Source of the DNA: Armatimonadota bacterium
Lineage (GTDB): Bacteria > Armatimonadota > Fimbriimonadia > Fimbriimonadales > ATM1
Assembly (NCBI GenBank): GCA_003577165.1
Contig: QEUM01000009.1
Span: forward strand, 124,001-188,000
Direction of reading: 5' to 3'
Length of the DNA: 64,000 nucleotides
Under the pieces are notes generated by a model, which had not been told where the DNA came from, did not search any database, and saw only the letters and a program-made list of their open reading frames with translations. The position numbers and the translations under genes were made by a program. Within the stretch, counting starts at the first letter, position 1. Each line of letters starts with the position of its first letter. This document shows, one piece after another, positions 54,924 to 61,592 of the stretch.

Positions 54924-55901
54924 CTACTTTATCCGAAGGACGGCGGAGCCTCGTATTCCGTCCGTTTTCAACTTCAAGAGCGCATCGTTTGCCTCTTGCA
55001 GCGAGAACTCCTCGACGCTTGTGCGAATGGGGATCTCCCAGGCGAGGCGCAGGAGTTCCCTGCCGTCTTCCCGCGTGTTTGCCGTGACGGAAGTGAGAGT
55101 CTTCTCGCCGAAGAGGTGGCGCGAGTACTCGAGGGGCGGCAGGTCGGACGAGTGGATCCCCGCGCAAACCACTGTCCCCGCCTTGCCGACGGCGGAGAGC
55201 GCCCGCGCGATGGCCTCGCCGGAAGGGGCGAAGACGATCGCCGCATCGAGGGGGCGGGGTGGGGCGTCGTCCGCGTCTCCAACCCAGTCCGCGCCCATGT
55301 CCTCCGCCAACTTCCGGTGCTTCGCTCCCCTGGTGATCACGCTCACGGCACAGCCCCAGTGCCGGGCGATCTGGATCACGATGTGCGCGGACGACCCGAA
55401 GCCGTAGAGGCCGAGGTCCTGGCCCGGCTCAACCCCCGACCGGCGGAGCGCCCGGAATCCGATAATGCCCGCGCACAGGAGCGGCGCGACCTGGGCGGCG
55501 TCGGCCTCCTCCGGGATCTCATACAGGAAGTCGCGCTTGGCCGCCACAGATTCGGCATAGCCGCCATCCACGTGGAATCCGGTGAACGTCGGCCGATCGC
55601 AGAGATTCTCCGATCCTCTCGAGCAAAAGGAGCATTGGCCGCAGGTTTCGTGCAGCCACGCTGCGCCGAATCGGACATTGGTGTCGCGCGCCCTGCCGAT
55701 GATCTGGTGACCCGGAACGATCGGCAGTTTCCCCCCCTCCAAGTCGCCTTCGACGACGTGGAGGTCGGTTCTGCAAACCGCGCAGACTTCCACGTCCAGG
55801 AGCACATCACCGTCACATGGTTCAGGTTCGGGAATCTGTTCAAGCGAAAGCGGTCGAGTTTCGACTGGCGCGCGCTGGTGGCAAACCTGTGCCCGCATCA
55901 T
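54924..55901 (-). CDS. Zinc-dependent alcohol dehydrogenase-like protein (MDR family), with internal deletion
   Basis: The 325-residue protein is a zinc MDR dehydrogenase: catalytic-zinc Cys in CAVCRTDLH, PGHQ, four structural-zinc cysteines in CGQCSFCSRGSENLC, and GLYGFGSSAHIVIQIARHWG for NAD(P). Between GHQIIGR and AWLHETCG there are only ~10 residues; relatives carry ~19, including the GDRVG turn, which is missing here. The enzyme may have altered or no activity. Its ATG overlaps the stop of the ABC ATPase (ATGA). Confidence 0.85.
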   Translation of the reverse strand: MMRAQVCHQRAPVETRPLSLEQIPEPEPCDGDVLLDVEVCAVCRTDLHVVEGDLEGGKLPIVPGHQIIGRARDTNVRFGAAWLHETCGQCSFCSRGSENLCDRPTFTGFHVDGGYAESVAAKRDFLYEIPEEADAAQVAPLLCAGIIGFRALRRSGVEPGQDLGLYGFGSSAHIVIQIARHWGCAVSVITRGAKHRKLAEDMGADWVGDADDAPPRPLDAAIVFAPSGEAIARALSAVGKAGTVVCAGIHSSDLPPLEYSRHLFGEKTLTSVTANTREDGRELLRLAWEIPIRTSVEEFSLQEANDALLKLKTDGIRGSAVLRIK

Positions 55902-56638
55902 GCGATGGATTCGGCTTGAGATTTCTCGACGATCTCGGCGATGGCAGGGTCTTTGGAGTTTCGAAATCTCTCCGGCGGAAGGTCCGCTGCGATGCGGCCG
56001 TCATGCAAGAACAGAACGCGATCGGCCACGCGCATCACCGCGCTAACATCGTGAGTGACGACTATGCTCGTCACATTGGTCTTCTCTGAAACTTCTCTGA
56101 TCAGGGCATCGATCGCGTACGCCGTAACCGGATCGAGTCCGCTGGTCGGCTCATCGTAGAAGACGACTTCCGGGTTCATCGCGAGAGCGCGCGCAAGGCC
56201 CACTCGCTTCTTCATGCCTCCGCTCAATTCGCTCGGGTACAGCCGCTCCGTGCCTTCAAGCCCGACGAGGCCGAGCTTCTCGGCGACCATTTCGCTGAGG
56301 GCCTTTCGGGTTAGTTTGAGATGCCTCTCTGCTCCGAAGGCGACGTTGTCGTGGACGTTCAGGTAGTCGAACAGGGCCGACCCTTGAAACACGACGCCGA
56401 GCCGCTTGCGCACCTGCGCGCGCTCGGACGAACTGGCCGAGTATAGGTTTACGTCGAAAAGCTCAACCGTCCCGCTTGTCGGTCTGAGCAGTCCTGCCAT
56501 ACAGCGCAGGAGGGTCGTCTTGCCTCCGCCGGAAGAGCCCATGATGGCGACCGTTTCGCCCGCCGACACGTCCACGTCGATCTCGGCAAGGACGACGCGA
56601 TCCCCGAACCGATGGCTCAGGCCCCGGACGCGGATCAT
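55898..56638 (-). CDS. MlaF-type ABC transporter ATPase
   Basis: The 246-residue ATPase has Walker A MGSSGGGKTTLLRCMAG, the Q-loop VVFQGSALFDYL, the signature LSGGMKKRVGLARALAM, Walker B EVVFYDEPTSGLDP and the H-loop VVTHDVSAVM. The SGGMKKRVGLARA signature is typical of MlaF, which powers MCE-dependent lipid transport. No mlaE or mlaD is adjacent; an MCE protein lies at 16852-18252. TATACT ends seven bases before the ATG. Confidence 0.9.
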   Translation of the reverse strand: MIRVRGLSHRFGDRVVLAEIDVDVSAGETVAIMGSSGGGKTTLLRCMAGLLRPTSGTVELFDVNLYSASSSERAQVRKRLGVVFQGSALFDYLNVHDNVAFGAERHLKLTRKALSEMVAEKLGLVGLEGTERLYPSELSGGMKKRVGLARALAMNPEVVFYDEPTSGLDPVTAYAIDALIREVSEKTNVTSIVVTHDVSAVMRVADRVLFLHDGRIAADLPPERFRNSKDPAIAEIVEKSQAESIA

Positions 56639-56645
56639 GTCGGGC

Positions 56646-56653
56646 AGTATACT
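56646..56653. promoter_or_regulatory. Palindromic AGTATACT serving as a possible bidirectional -10
   Basis: The eight-base palindrome reads TATACT on both strands. Minus-strand use places +1 near the ATPase ATG at 56638 (seven bases away, leaderless); plus-strand use gives a ~27-base leader with TGGAG for the gene at 56687. Confidence 0.5.
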
Positions 56654-56686
56654 CGTGAGTCAATCCGACCCCCTACTGGAGCATTC

Positions 56687-57502
56687 ATGACAGCAAGCCT
56701 TCTCGTCACAGCAGCATTCGCCGTTCCTTCCCTCATCCAAACCTACCCCCTCGAACTTCGGTTTGCGGAGAATGAGACCCTCAAGTATCGCGAGGCCATC
56801 GAGGTCACTGAATCGACAAGCGCAGGCGGCCAAACGCAGTCTATGAAGGCGGAGGGATCTCGAACGATCAACATCAAGGTGACGAGCATCGACGGCAACA
56901 AGGCATCGATGTCGTTTGCCTATTCCAATGTGACCGGAAAAGCCAAGGCATCCGGATTGCCGCCCAACGCGCCAAAGGCGGAAGTCGCGAAGATGGAACA
57001 GGAATACGCTGAGCGATTCAAGAATGACCTCGGCTCAGGCGAAAGGACCCAGATGGTGGATCCGAAAGGCAACACGGTTTACAAGTTCATCCTCGACGAT
57101 GTGAGGACGGTGTGGGTCTATAAGGGAGCCTTCTTGGCGCTGGCGCTTCCCGACCACGCGCCGAAGATGAACGAGAAGTGGACTTTGAAACTCGCGCAGC
57201 CAGATCCGACGACGAGCGCGCTCTTCGACTTCACGTTCAAACTCGTGGGCGCCCTTCCGCGCGAGGGTGAGACGGCCTACCGAATCGTGATCTCCGGCTC
57301 CACTTCAAATACTCAGAAGCAGAACGGCATGACCATGAAGCAGTCGCTGGAAGTCTCCGGTTGGGTGCTGCTTGGCGGCACGTCCGGCAAGATACTCGGC
57401 GCGGAGATCACCTCGACTTCCACCCAGTCCCTCACGCACCCGCAGCAGGGCACAAGGAAGGCCGTCAACAAAACGGTCCGGAAACTCGAAAAGATCGACT
57501 GA
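56687..57502 (+). CDS. Secreted protein of unknown function (possibly DUF6263-like)
   Basis: The 271-residue protein has a signal peptide (TASLLVTAAFAVPSLIQ) and a beta-rich mature part. It includes LELRFAENETLKYREAIEVT, SRTINIKVTSIDGNKASMSF and SLEVSGWVLLGGTSGKILG, a pattern of a two-domain beta-sandwich seen in DUF6263-like secreted proteins. No catalytic residues are seen. TGGAG lies before the ATG. It is convergent with herA. Confidence 0.7.
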   Translation: MTASLLVTAAFAVPSLIQTYPLELRFAENETLKYREAIEVTESTSAGGQTQSMKAEGSRTINIKVTSIDGNKASMSFAYSNVTGKAKASGLPPNAPKAEVAKMEQEYAERFKNDLGSGERTQMVDPKGNTVYKFILDDVRTVWVYKGAFLALALPDHAPKMNEKWTLKLAQPDPTTSALFDFTFKLVGALPREGETAYRIVISGSTSNTQKQNGMTMKQSLEVSGWVLLGGTSGKILGAEITSTSTQSLTHPQQGTRKAVNKTVRKLEKID

Positions 57503-57509
57503 CCCCGAT

Positions 57510-59456
57510 CTACGAGAAGGGATCTTCAGGGTCCGCCACAGGAACCGGCGGGCCCGCTTTCATTTCTTGAGCACGGCCGCCGCACCGCTGAATGACCTCT
57601 TTGACCTGCCTTCCTTCATTCCGCTTTTCCTCGGCAAGGCCTTCAAGGATGCGCCTCAGCCGGCTCTCGCGATCCTCGACCGGGACTGCGGCGAGGAGGT
57701 CACGAACAACAGCGGGCGCGATGTGGGGGTCGATGCTCTTGGCCACGCGCATGATTTCGTCTTCGAGGCTCTGCCTGTTCACCGGAAACTTCCGCATACC
57801 GTCGGTTCCGCGCAGACAGGTGGGCAGTGGGAATCGAATGAACAAAGGCTGAGAAAAGTGTGGGTGACGAACCATCAGTTCTCCCGGATCGGCCGTCGCG
57901 AGTTTCTCCCGCACGGCCGGCGGATAGACGGTGTATGTCGGATGCGTGAGTTCCTCGAGTTGGATGTTCCCGAACGCGGAGTTGGCACAGTTGCCGACGA
58001 TTTGCGGATCAACGCGTGAACGAAACTGCTGCGCGCTGAACAGCACCAGTCCAAGGTACCGACCCCGCGCCGCGATGTCCCGAAGTGACCGCATCACGTG
58101 AGTTTCGCGTCCTCCGCTCGGGGCGTACTTATTCAATTCGTCAACGACGACGATCAGTCTCCGGACACCAAGGTTGCCCTCCTCCATTCGGTTGCGCAAT
58201 TCCGAGATGACGGCCGCGAAGATCAAGTCCTGCGCGTCTGCGCTGCACTGCGCAACATCGACGACGTAGACGTGCCGATCCTCAAACCTGGCCGGGAGCG
58301 GCGGCACCTCCTCCGTTTGAGAGGCGATGAGGCCGGAGAACCTCTGGCGAAAGCCCTCCAGACGGTTGTACATCTTGCGAATGGTCGCCGAGTGGTGCGA
58401 GTGGTAGTCCCCGCGCCCTTCCTCCGCCTTCGCCAGCATCTGCTTGACCGCCTCGATGAGTTGGAAGAGAGAGTCCACCTTCAGCGGTGCCGAGTCCTCT
58501 TCGACTCTCCAGTCGCGTCCGACGACTTCGTTTTGGAGAAACGCAAGGAAGGAGTCCGCCTTCGCGTCGAGGTCTTCGCGTGAGAGCAGCACGTCGGCGT
58601 TCTGAAGCACCGTGTTCAGGCCGAAGCAGAAGCCGTGCGTGGGGTTACTCGTATCGAGGTCGGGATGGCGTCGGAGCGTGACCAAGCCGGAATGCGCTTC
58701 GGACTGATACGGCGCGTAGTAGGTGACGCTTTGAAACGGGGCAACAGGAATGTCAACTTGCCCGTACATGCGCGCAGACGCATCGTCGGGGCTCTCCCAA
58801 GCATGGTCAAGGTAGAGGAGATCGCCGCCCTTGACGTTAAACATGACGGCGGCAATGCCTTGATCTTCCCTCCCCTCGTAGTGCTGGAAGATCGACGAGA
58901 GCAGGAATTGAATGTAACTCGTCTTCGCCGCAAGGCCGCTTGTGCCCGTGATGTTGAAGTGACCGGCCTCCGGGCCGAGGATGTAGTCCGGATCCGCGTA
59001 CACAGGAAGTTCCTTGCCCTTCATCCCATAGAATCCGATCGGGATGCCTCCTTCAAACTTGTCCCCGCAAAGTGCGGTGCGCACATCGGCGGCTGTCGCC
59101 TCGTAAACCTCGCCAATTCCCACCGCCGCGACGGGCTCTTCCGGTATGCGCCGCAGCACGGCCGCTTCGTAGACTCGGATTTCCGGTCGCAGCGTGAGCG
59201 CCTCCCCCCCGGGCGTTCCTTCCCTGCCGAGATAGTCTGTCAGGGCGTTCGGGAGATCGTTGTAAGCGTAGGCTTCGACGACCACGCCGTAAATCCTCAC
59301 CGCTGGACCCTCGCCACGGCCGTATTCCACTCTCACGAGCGAGCCGATTCCGAGCGGCGCGGACAGTTCGGCCCAAAAATGGAACTTGTACGCCGTATTC
59401 GGGGATTGCTCCGTTCCTACTACGTGTCCGATGACTTGCTGTGAAGGTTCGCTCAT
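57510..59456 (-). CDS. HerA-like ATPase/translocase
   Basis: HerA is a hexameric DNA translocase that works with the nuclease NurA. The 648-residue protein opens with a HAS-barrel-like domain (QVIGHVVGTEQSPNTAYKF). The RecA-like core has a P-loop ITGTSGLAAKTS, in which the usual Gly-Lys is Ala-Lys, and Walker B LIVVVDELNKYAP; the FSAQQFRSRVDPQIVGNCA segment matches the family's C-terminal part. The ATG at 59456 overlaps the nurA-like stop (ATGA); earlier in-frame codons lie inside that gene and were rejected. It is the last gene of a three-gene operon. Confidence 0.85.
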   Translation of the reverse strand: MSEPSQQVIGHVVGTEQSPNTAYKFHFWAELSAPLGIGSLVRVEYGRGEGPAVRIYGVVVEAYAYNDLPNALTDYLGREGTPGGEALTLRPEIRVYEAAVLRRIPEEPVAAVGIGEVYEATAADVRTALCGDKFEGGIPIGFYGMKGKELPVYADPDYILGPEAGHFNITGTSGLAAKTSYIQFLLSSIFQHYEGREDQGIAAVMFNVKGGDLLYLDHAWESPDDASARMYGQVDIPVAPFQSVTYYAPYQSEAHSGLVTLRRHPDLDTSNPTHGFCFGLNTVLQNADVLLSREDLDAKADSFLAFLQNEVVGRDWRVEEDSAPLKVDSLFQLIEAVKQMLAKAEEGRGDYHSHHSATIRKMYNRLEGFRQRFSGLIASQTEEVPPLPARFEDRHVYVVDVAQCSADAQDLIFAAVISELRNRMEEGNLGVRRLIVVVDELNKYAPSGGRETHVMRSLRDIAARGRYLGLVLFSAQQFRSRVDPQIVGNCANSAFGNIQLEELTHPTYTVYPPAVREKLATADPGELMVRHPHFSQPLFIRFPLPTCLRGTDGMRKFPVNRQSLEDEIMRVAKSIDPHIAPAVVRDLLAAVPVEDRESRLRRILEGLAEEKRNEGRQVKEVIQRCGGRAQEMKAGPPVPVADPEDPFS

Positions 59457-60445
59457 GTACCCACCATGCCGGTCAATTGCGCATCGCTCGGCTGGAGCGA
59501 CCGCAAATACATCTCCACCCTGCGGATTGGATAGATCATCCTGTCGAATCGAACATCGGGCAGAGAGAGAGGCGCCCTCTCCGCGAGGATCCATGAACTC
59601 ACATCGTCTATGTATCGCATGGACTCCTCCGCGGGCGGCAATTCGACCCGAATGAGCCCGAAAAAGGGCCCCTGCGTGTCCGAGTGTCTCAAGCGAAGAT
59701 ACCAACTGTACGCCGCTCGTCGCTGAAGCGGATTCGCGAGAAAGACTGGACTCCTCTGGCCCGGACGTAGAGATTGGATGACTTCGAGTTTCTCACGCTC
59801 CTGGAAGTACATCTTCCGATGGGATTTCACAACACCCACGATTCGATGAAACTCGGACTTCCCCTCCAAGATGTTGGCGATGCCCCCGTCGACGAGGAGC
59901 CATCCAGGGTTGCCGTCTTCCAACCATTTAGCGATGATACGTCGCTCCTTTGCGTCCCTCTCCACGCTGATTCGATTTTGTATCGCCTTCGATGGCGATT
60001 CACCGCTCGCGAGATCGGCGCGGACCTGCGCGAACTCGTATCCTCGCTCCCTTAGTCGCGTCGCGGCCTGCGTGCCCTCGAAGGCGGCAACAAAAGTCTT
60101 CTGATCCACATAGCCGTGCGTGTGAAGCATCTCTCGGCCTTCGCGCTTCAGGATCGCCGCTCCGACGCAAGCGATGCAGCCCGGATAGAAGTCTTCGAAA
60201 AACGCCAATCGAGTCTTCTCTGTGCCGTCTTCGAACCACTCGAACGATGAGACACCCGATTGCGCGATCTCGCGGGCTTCGAAGGGACCTGCTTCGACCA
60301 CGTCCGAATCTACGAACTCTTCGAGAGCGGTGTCTTCTCGTGGAATCCAGCCGAGTTCCTGCGCTGCGTCGAATGGCTTGGCGACCATCCGCACGCCGCG
60401 AACATCGCGAAGCAGTTCCGAGAGCCGGAAAGGCAGGGATGTCAT
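59453..60445 (-). CDS. NurA-like nuclease
   Basis: The 330-residue protein resembles the NurA family, Mn-dependent nucleases that resect DNA ends with HerA. Two acidic motifs at the expected spacing are visible: FEWFEDGTEKTRLAFFED near residue 70 and WLLVDGGIAN near residue 195, followed by VVGVVKSHRK. The stop overlaps the HerA-like start, which strongly supports a NurA-HerA pair. The similarity is moderate, so the exact nuclease activity is inferred. Confidence 0.75.
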   Translation of the reverse strand: MTSLPFRLSELLRDVRGVRMVAKPFDAAQELGWIPREDTALEEFVDSDVVEAGPFEAREIAQSGVSSFEWFEDGTEKTRLAFFEDFYPGCIACVGAAILKREGREMLHTHGYVDQKTFVAAFEGTQAATRLRERGYEFAQVRADLASGESPSKAIQNRISVERDAKERRIIAKWLEDGNPGWLLVDGGIANILEGKSEFHRIVGVVKSHRKMYFQEREKLEVIQSLRPGQRSPVFLANPLQRRAAYSWYLRLRHSDTQGPFFGLIRVELPPAEESMRYIDDVSSWILAERAPLSLPDVRFDRMIYPIRRVEMYLRSLQPSDAQLTGMVGT

Positions 60446-60461
60446 GTTCGATCCGAACCCT

Positions 60462-61526
60462 CTATCCTACACTCAACCACTCAACGCTCTCCTTCAATTG
60501 ACGAACCGCATCCTCCGCCGCGGTTTCGCCTCTCCGTCGCGGTGTCGGAAGGTCCGCGTCGAGATAGGCGCTCACTTCGAGTAAGGACTGCACATCAGCA
60601 GGAATCCCTTCGGGAACGTCGCGGTCGAGCAAGGTGAGCGCGGCAGCAATCCACATACGCGGAACGGTCCTGAGGTTGTATCCTCCGCCTCCGCAGGCAA
60701 CCGTTGGCAGGTCGAGGCCGCGCACCTCCTGTACCGCCTCCAGCCATTCTTGCGCCGCGAGGTTGACGTGAGCGATCGGATCAAGAGCATGAGTGTCGGT
60801 ACCCATTTGCAGAACGATGGCCTCGGCGCCGAAGCGGCGCACCGCCGTCGGCACGATGGCACGAAATGCCTCAAGCCACACGTCCCCCGTCGTTCCCGCG
60901 TTGACGGGAATGTTGAGCGAAGTCTTCTCCGCACCCAACTCTCCGACGAACCCTGTGCCGGGAAACAGAGAACGACCCGATTCATGAATGCTGATGGTGA
61001 GAACGGTGGGTTCGTCGTAGAAGATCCACTGCACTCCATCCCCGTGGTGGACGTCGATGTCGATGTAGGCGACCCTCGAGAAGCGTTCACGCAGCAGGGA
61101 GATCGCCACTGCCAAGTCGTTGTAGATACAGAATCCGCTCGCTCGCTCAGGCATCGCGTGATGAAGTCCGCCACTGAGGGAGATCGCCAGGGGCGAACCG
61201 TCGCACACCGCGCGCGCTGCGGCTGCGCTGCCGCCGACATACCAGAGGCTGGCTCCGTGCATGTCCGAGAAAAGAGGATCGTCACCGTAGCCGAGGCCGT
61301 GCTCTGGTGATGGAACTCCCTCGCCTGCGCGCTTGACAGCCTCAAGATAGTCGCGCGTGTGGATTCGCAGGAGGTCGTCGTACGTCGCTGGGGGGGGCAC
61401 CGACACCTGGATGCCTTCGGCCTCTGCGAGAGCGATGGCGCGGCGAAGCCGCTCCGGATTCAGCGGATGGCCGGCTCCGAAGTCGTAGGAGAGCATCTCC
61501 GGCCGGTAGAAGAACTCGCCGCGCAC
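60462..61526 (-). CDS. Histone deacetylase-family amidohydrolase (AcuC-like)
   Basis: The 354-residue zinc enzyme has the catalytic features of class I deacetylases: LHHAMP, the zinc site DIDVHHGDG, SIHESG, MGTDTH and the catalytic-Tyr GGGGYN. Bacterial AcuC-type enzymes deacetylate proteins such as acetyl-CoA synthetase, or polyamines. The GTG at 61526 matches the conserved N-terminus FFYRPEMLSYDFGAGHP, and TACTCT lies six bases before it; a TTG at 61577 would precede that signal. It is the first gene of the NurA-HerA operon, 16 bases before nurA. Confidence 0.87.
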   Translation of the reverse strand: MRGEFFYRPEMLSYDFGAGHPLNPERLRRAIALAEAEGIQVSVPPPATYDDLLRIHTRDYLEAVKRAGEGVPSPEHGLGYGDDPLFSDMHGASLWYVGGSAAAARAVCDGSPLAISLSGGLHHAMPERASGFCIYNDLAVAISLLRERFSRVAYIDIDVHHGDGVQWIFYDEPTVLTISIHESGRSLFPGTGFVGELGAEKTSLNIPVNAGTTGDVWLEAFRAIVPTAVRRFGAEAIVLQMGTDTHALDPIAHVNLAAQEWLEAVQEVRGLDLPTVACGGGGYNLRTVPRMWIAAALTLLDRDVPEGIPADVQSLLEVSAYLDADLPTPRRRGETAAEDAVRQLKESVEWLSVG

Positions 61527-61538: not shown

Positions 61539-61592
61539 CCGCGCCCGAGCCGAGCAGTCTCGGCGAAGCATGCGCAAAAGCGCGGCCGCCTC

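Follow-up and report, generated by a model that had tools for sequence, protein, structure and literature searches.

A gene for a histone deacetylase-like enzyme followed directly by genes for a NurA-like nuclease and a HerA-like translocase raises the question of whether the three products work together. Such a locus was found at 57510-61526 of the window, i.e., the whole 64,000-nucleotide stretch analysed here from an Armatimonadota bacterium (contig QEUM01000009.1). A sequence-only reading had located three ORFs there and suggested that the deacetylase might act as a third partner of NurA-HerA. The ORFs were found at these positions; they look intact, all lie on the minus strand, and follow one another in the order deacetylase, nurA, and herA. 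The deacetylase gene (60462..61526, minus strand) encodes 354 aa from a GTG start, nurA (59453..60445, minus strand) encodes 330 aa, and herA (57510..59456, minus strand) encodes 648 aa from an ATG start. The deacetylase start was assigned to the GTG at 61526, near which, within a few residues, most of the aligned relatives also start. A longer frame from a TTG at 61577 was considered unnecessary, as the starts of the relatives agree with the GTG. From the frame positions, the deacetylase and nurA are separated by 16 bases (60446..60461, minus strand), and the nurA stop and the herA start overlap by ATGA (59453..59456, minus strand), as had been described. With a gap of only 16 bases, one transcript may cover all three genes in this organism. 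Tight same-strand gene neighbours are common in bacteria, and thus adjacency in a single genome carries little weight alone.

The first gene proved to encode a class I-type zinc deacetylase, as proposed. Its product scored 254.2 bits with Pfam Hist_deacetyl (PF00850), and its best PDB matches were class I enzymes, namely, yeast clr6 and human HDAC3, 2, and 1. The active site was complete, with the double His (H122 H123), the Asp-His-Asp zinc ligands (D158, H160, and D244), and the catalytic Tyr (Y283) all invariant among 8 aligned sequences; the roles of these motifs were taken from PMC11532494. According to that paper, the double His, the Asp-His-Asp ligands, and the GFC and GGGY motifs characterize AcuC and class I HDACs, and all of these are present in this deacetylase. 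The RPPxHH motif, given there for cluster 1, was absent, with SGGLHH in its place; AcuC is assigned to sub-cluster 2c. The likeness to AcuC is one of described motifs, and no acu operon surrounds this gene. On contig C8, the same genome encodes an acetyl-CoA synthetase (968 bits) carrying the RSGKIMR motif, which PMC11532494 gives as the acetylation-regulated site, linked to AcuC, in the AcuC substrate. Given this synthetase, and by analogy with relatives, a metabolic role would be the default for the deacetylase. Such a widespread chromosomal enzyme would most likely strip acyl groups from the lysines of metabolic enzymes, e.g., acetyl-CoA synthetase.

The NurA-like identity of the second product was likewise confirmed. 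It exceeded the Pfam NurA cut-off (PF09376; 24.3 bits, cut-off 21), and a profile of 21 relatives found Deinococcus NurA (7f6d, E = 7.3e-6) and Thermotoga TM1739 (1zup, E = 9.5e-6), the latter being named as a bacterial NurA in PMC9960219. Residues D73 and D186 were invariant in 21 sequences. In the case of HerA, the matches to curated families were weak, and Pfam returned just a sub-threshold HAS-barrel match (19.7 bits, cut-off 25.2). Its identity as a HerA-like translocase, which had also been proposed, was established by the match to PDB chain 7f6d_B, Deinococcus HerA (E = 5.9e-44, 153.4 bits). Moreover, K178/T179 of Walker A and D439/E440 of Walker B aligned with K175/T176 and D487/E488 of Deinococcus HerA, so that the P-loop and Walker B residues of the latter are present here. 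According to PMC9960219, K175 and T176 of the Deinococcus protein bind nucleotide and Mg. The P-loop was unusual in having no glycine before the lysine (SGLAAKT, not the usual GK[ST]), and this form was conserved in relatives. A degenerate Walker A was considered and rejected, as the form is kept in relatives and is the same in Deinococcus HerA (GISGVATKTS, compared with GTSGLAAKTS here); the P-loop is therefore a feature of the subfamily, not a sign of decay. The Walker B segment reads VDELNKYAP here and LDELNKYAP in Deinococcus.

Two further observations were made on HerA. Gly 211 aligned with residue 220 of Deinococcus HerA, a catalytic acidic residue according to PMC9960219, and the adjacent Asp 212 was invariant in 16 aligned sequences. 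In addition, some genomes of the order encode a second, more distant HerA-like protein with 30-32% identity (L090 in G159, L091 in G168, and L088 in G189).

Judged from sequence, nurA and herA form a NurA-HerA pair like that of the bacterium Deinococcus radiodurans (7f6d). The same gene pair occurs in both organisms; HerA is similar over two stretches, whereas the NurA proteins are remote (28.7 bits by profile). PMC9960219 treats the Deinococcus nurA and herA as an operon and reports that their deletion raised tolerance to high doses of mitomycin C and UV. By analogy with D. radiodurans, a HerA hexamer would translocate on dsDNA and drive the NurA nuclease to trim DNA ends. The biochemical activities of NurA-HerA and of the deacetylase, as well as the substrate of the latter, we infer from relatives. 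PMC9960219 calls the biological role of NurA-HerA in bacteria uncertain, and the same caution applies here. Among relatives, 28 of the 56 fetched nurA loci also held herA, and within the order the two genes lay within 10 kb in 8 of the 25 genomes having both, the window's own counted. Hence the pair does not form an operon everywhere, as nurA and herA stand apart in many genomes of the order. They were on different contigs or far apart, for example, in G099 (L033 and L149), G205 (L148 and L147), and the complete genome G155 (L166). When the ORFs in the gaps of several relatives' loci were inspected by eye, no shared third protein was evident between nurA and herA.

Whether the three-gene order recurs, a check put forward by the sequence-only reading, was examined in 101 genomes of the order, including the window's genome. 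HerA was found in 27 of these genomes, NurA in 30, and the deacetylase in 74, 48 of which had the deacetylase with neither nurA nor herA. The remaining 26 genomes had the deacetylase together with nurA or herA, and the genes were within 10 kb of each other in the window's own genome only. Thus, the order deacetylase-NurA-HerA does not recur (1/26). Both the deacetylase and herA were present in 24 genomes: within 10 kb in one, far apart on one contig in three (281 kb in the single-contig genome G155, 697 kb in G099, and 1.65 Mb), and on different contigs in 20. Both the deacetylase and nurA were also present in 24 genomes, being within 10 kb in one, far apart on one contig in one, and on different contigs in 22.

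Many of the relatives are fragmented drafts, in which different contigs can hide adjacency. Accordingly, the sequence around nurA was retrieved from all 56 relatives in which nurA had been matched. The deacetylase profile found nothing in any of these 56 nurA loci, although in 4 of them the sequence upstream of nurA is shorter than 1.2 kb, nor did it find anything in the relatives' 32 herA loci. As it derives from sequences of this order, the profile could miss a very distant family of deacetylases. As a control, all 7 included deacetylase loci were found by the same profile. In G156, the deacetylase ends approximately 560 bases from a contig end, and nurA-herA is internal on another contig. 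Beyond the phylum, a search of genome contigs for related loci returned one weak match of 30 residues (L032). Searches for literature linking NurA, HerA, and histone deacetylase found none, and those on Armatimonadota and histone deacetylase found nothing relevant. The deacetylase gene was unlinked to nurA-herA in all relatives examined, which is the outcome named beforehand as contrary to a functional third partner, and that proposal is therefore not supported.

The comparison of 8 genomes of the family gave a consistent picture of where the arrangement changes. On the herA side, a gene for a 296-aa protein without a Pfam match (56612..57502, plus strand), convergent with herA, and a gene for an ABC ATPase (55898..56638, minus strand) also adjoin the herA locus in G156 and G164, as does the ABC ATPase gene in G160. 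On the other side, none of TerC, the antiporter, and the deacetylase was beside nurA in the family relatives, and the synteny breakpoint falls in the 16-base gap. The deacetylase also occurs, at 52-58% identity and in different surroundings, in three further genomes of the family, and its neighbours, read by eye, differ between relatives. With synteny present on the side of herA and absent on that of the deacetylase, the deacetylase/nurA junction looks, at the level of gene order, like a private arrangement of this lineage.

HerA-Sir2 and HerA-DUF4297 are defence complexes, in which, as here, the gene of a HerA-type ATPase stands beside that of another enzyme. On this analogy, drawn in the sequence-only reading, the locus would be an anti-phage module whose effector is either the deacetylase or NurA. 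HerA also matched the PADLOC mad8 model weakly (42.1 bits); however, the neighbouring ABC ATPase scored 48.0 bits on the same model, and membership in a defence system by this route was rejected as generic ATPase similarity. The PADLOC HerA model gave 13.8 bits, and the solved defence HerA chains (9c1m and 8ziq, which we take to be defence HerA complexes) gave 16.7-18 bits, compared with 153.4 bits for Deinococcus HerA. Unlike in the defence complexes, the partner here is NurA, and the deacetylase link is non-recurrent; no dedicated effector is kept beside herA, the deacetylase being in 0/32 of the relatives' herA loci. The neighbours tested comprise a transcription-repair coupling factor, homoserine dehydrogenase, a Cys/Met-metabolism PLP enzyme, the ABC ATPase, TerC, and a Kef-like antiporter. 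Among ten neighbours, the PADLOC hits were cross-matches of a helicase, which is the transcription-repair coupling factor by Pfam, and of the ABC ATPase. No match to Sir2 or DUF4297 was found among the window neighbours scanned, and the part of the window covered, from about 42.6 to 64 kb, showed no defence island, proximity to which had been suggested as a check. With HerA closest to the Deinococcus partner of NurA and the tested neighbours not being defence genes, the analogy is not supported, and an anti-phage module is highly improbable.

A genuine system of three genes, with the deacetylase regulating NurA-HerA or deacetylating a DNA-bound protein during end processing, would accord with the compact layout on one strand and with the key residues present in all three proteins. 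Cotranscription, plausible from the same-strand gap, can also reflect function. However, adjacency in a single genome of the order, its absence from all nurA loci of relatives, and the frequent occurrence of the deacetylase without nurA-herA make such a system very unlikely. A recent link between the deacetylase and nurA-herA private to this lineage is possible, because the set searched contains no second genome of the genus. A more specific version, in which the deacetylase was captured into the nurA-herA transcript in this lineage alone and tunes end resection with NurA, HerA, or a DNA-bound protein as its substrate, has very little probability. Nothing indicates that the deacetylase acts on the NurA-HerA complex. 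With high confidence, the trio consists of two independent units that chance has placed side by side in this lineage, namely, the NurA-HerA pair and an unrelated, probably metabolic deacetylase.

As a chance juxtaposition, the trio does not look like a new system; the nurA-herA pair is of a kind already known from Deinococcus, and the deacetylase is of a common type. Seen in one genome only, the three-gene order would have pointed to control of DNA-end resection by acetylation, a false lead that the comparison removes. Moreover, these genomes could serve the study of NurA-HerA, the pair whose role in bacteria PMC9960219 regards as uncertain.
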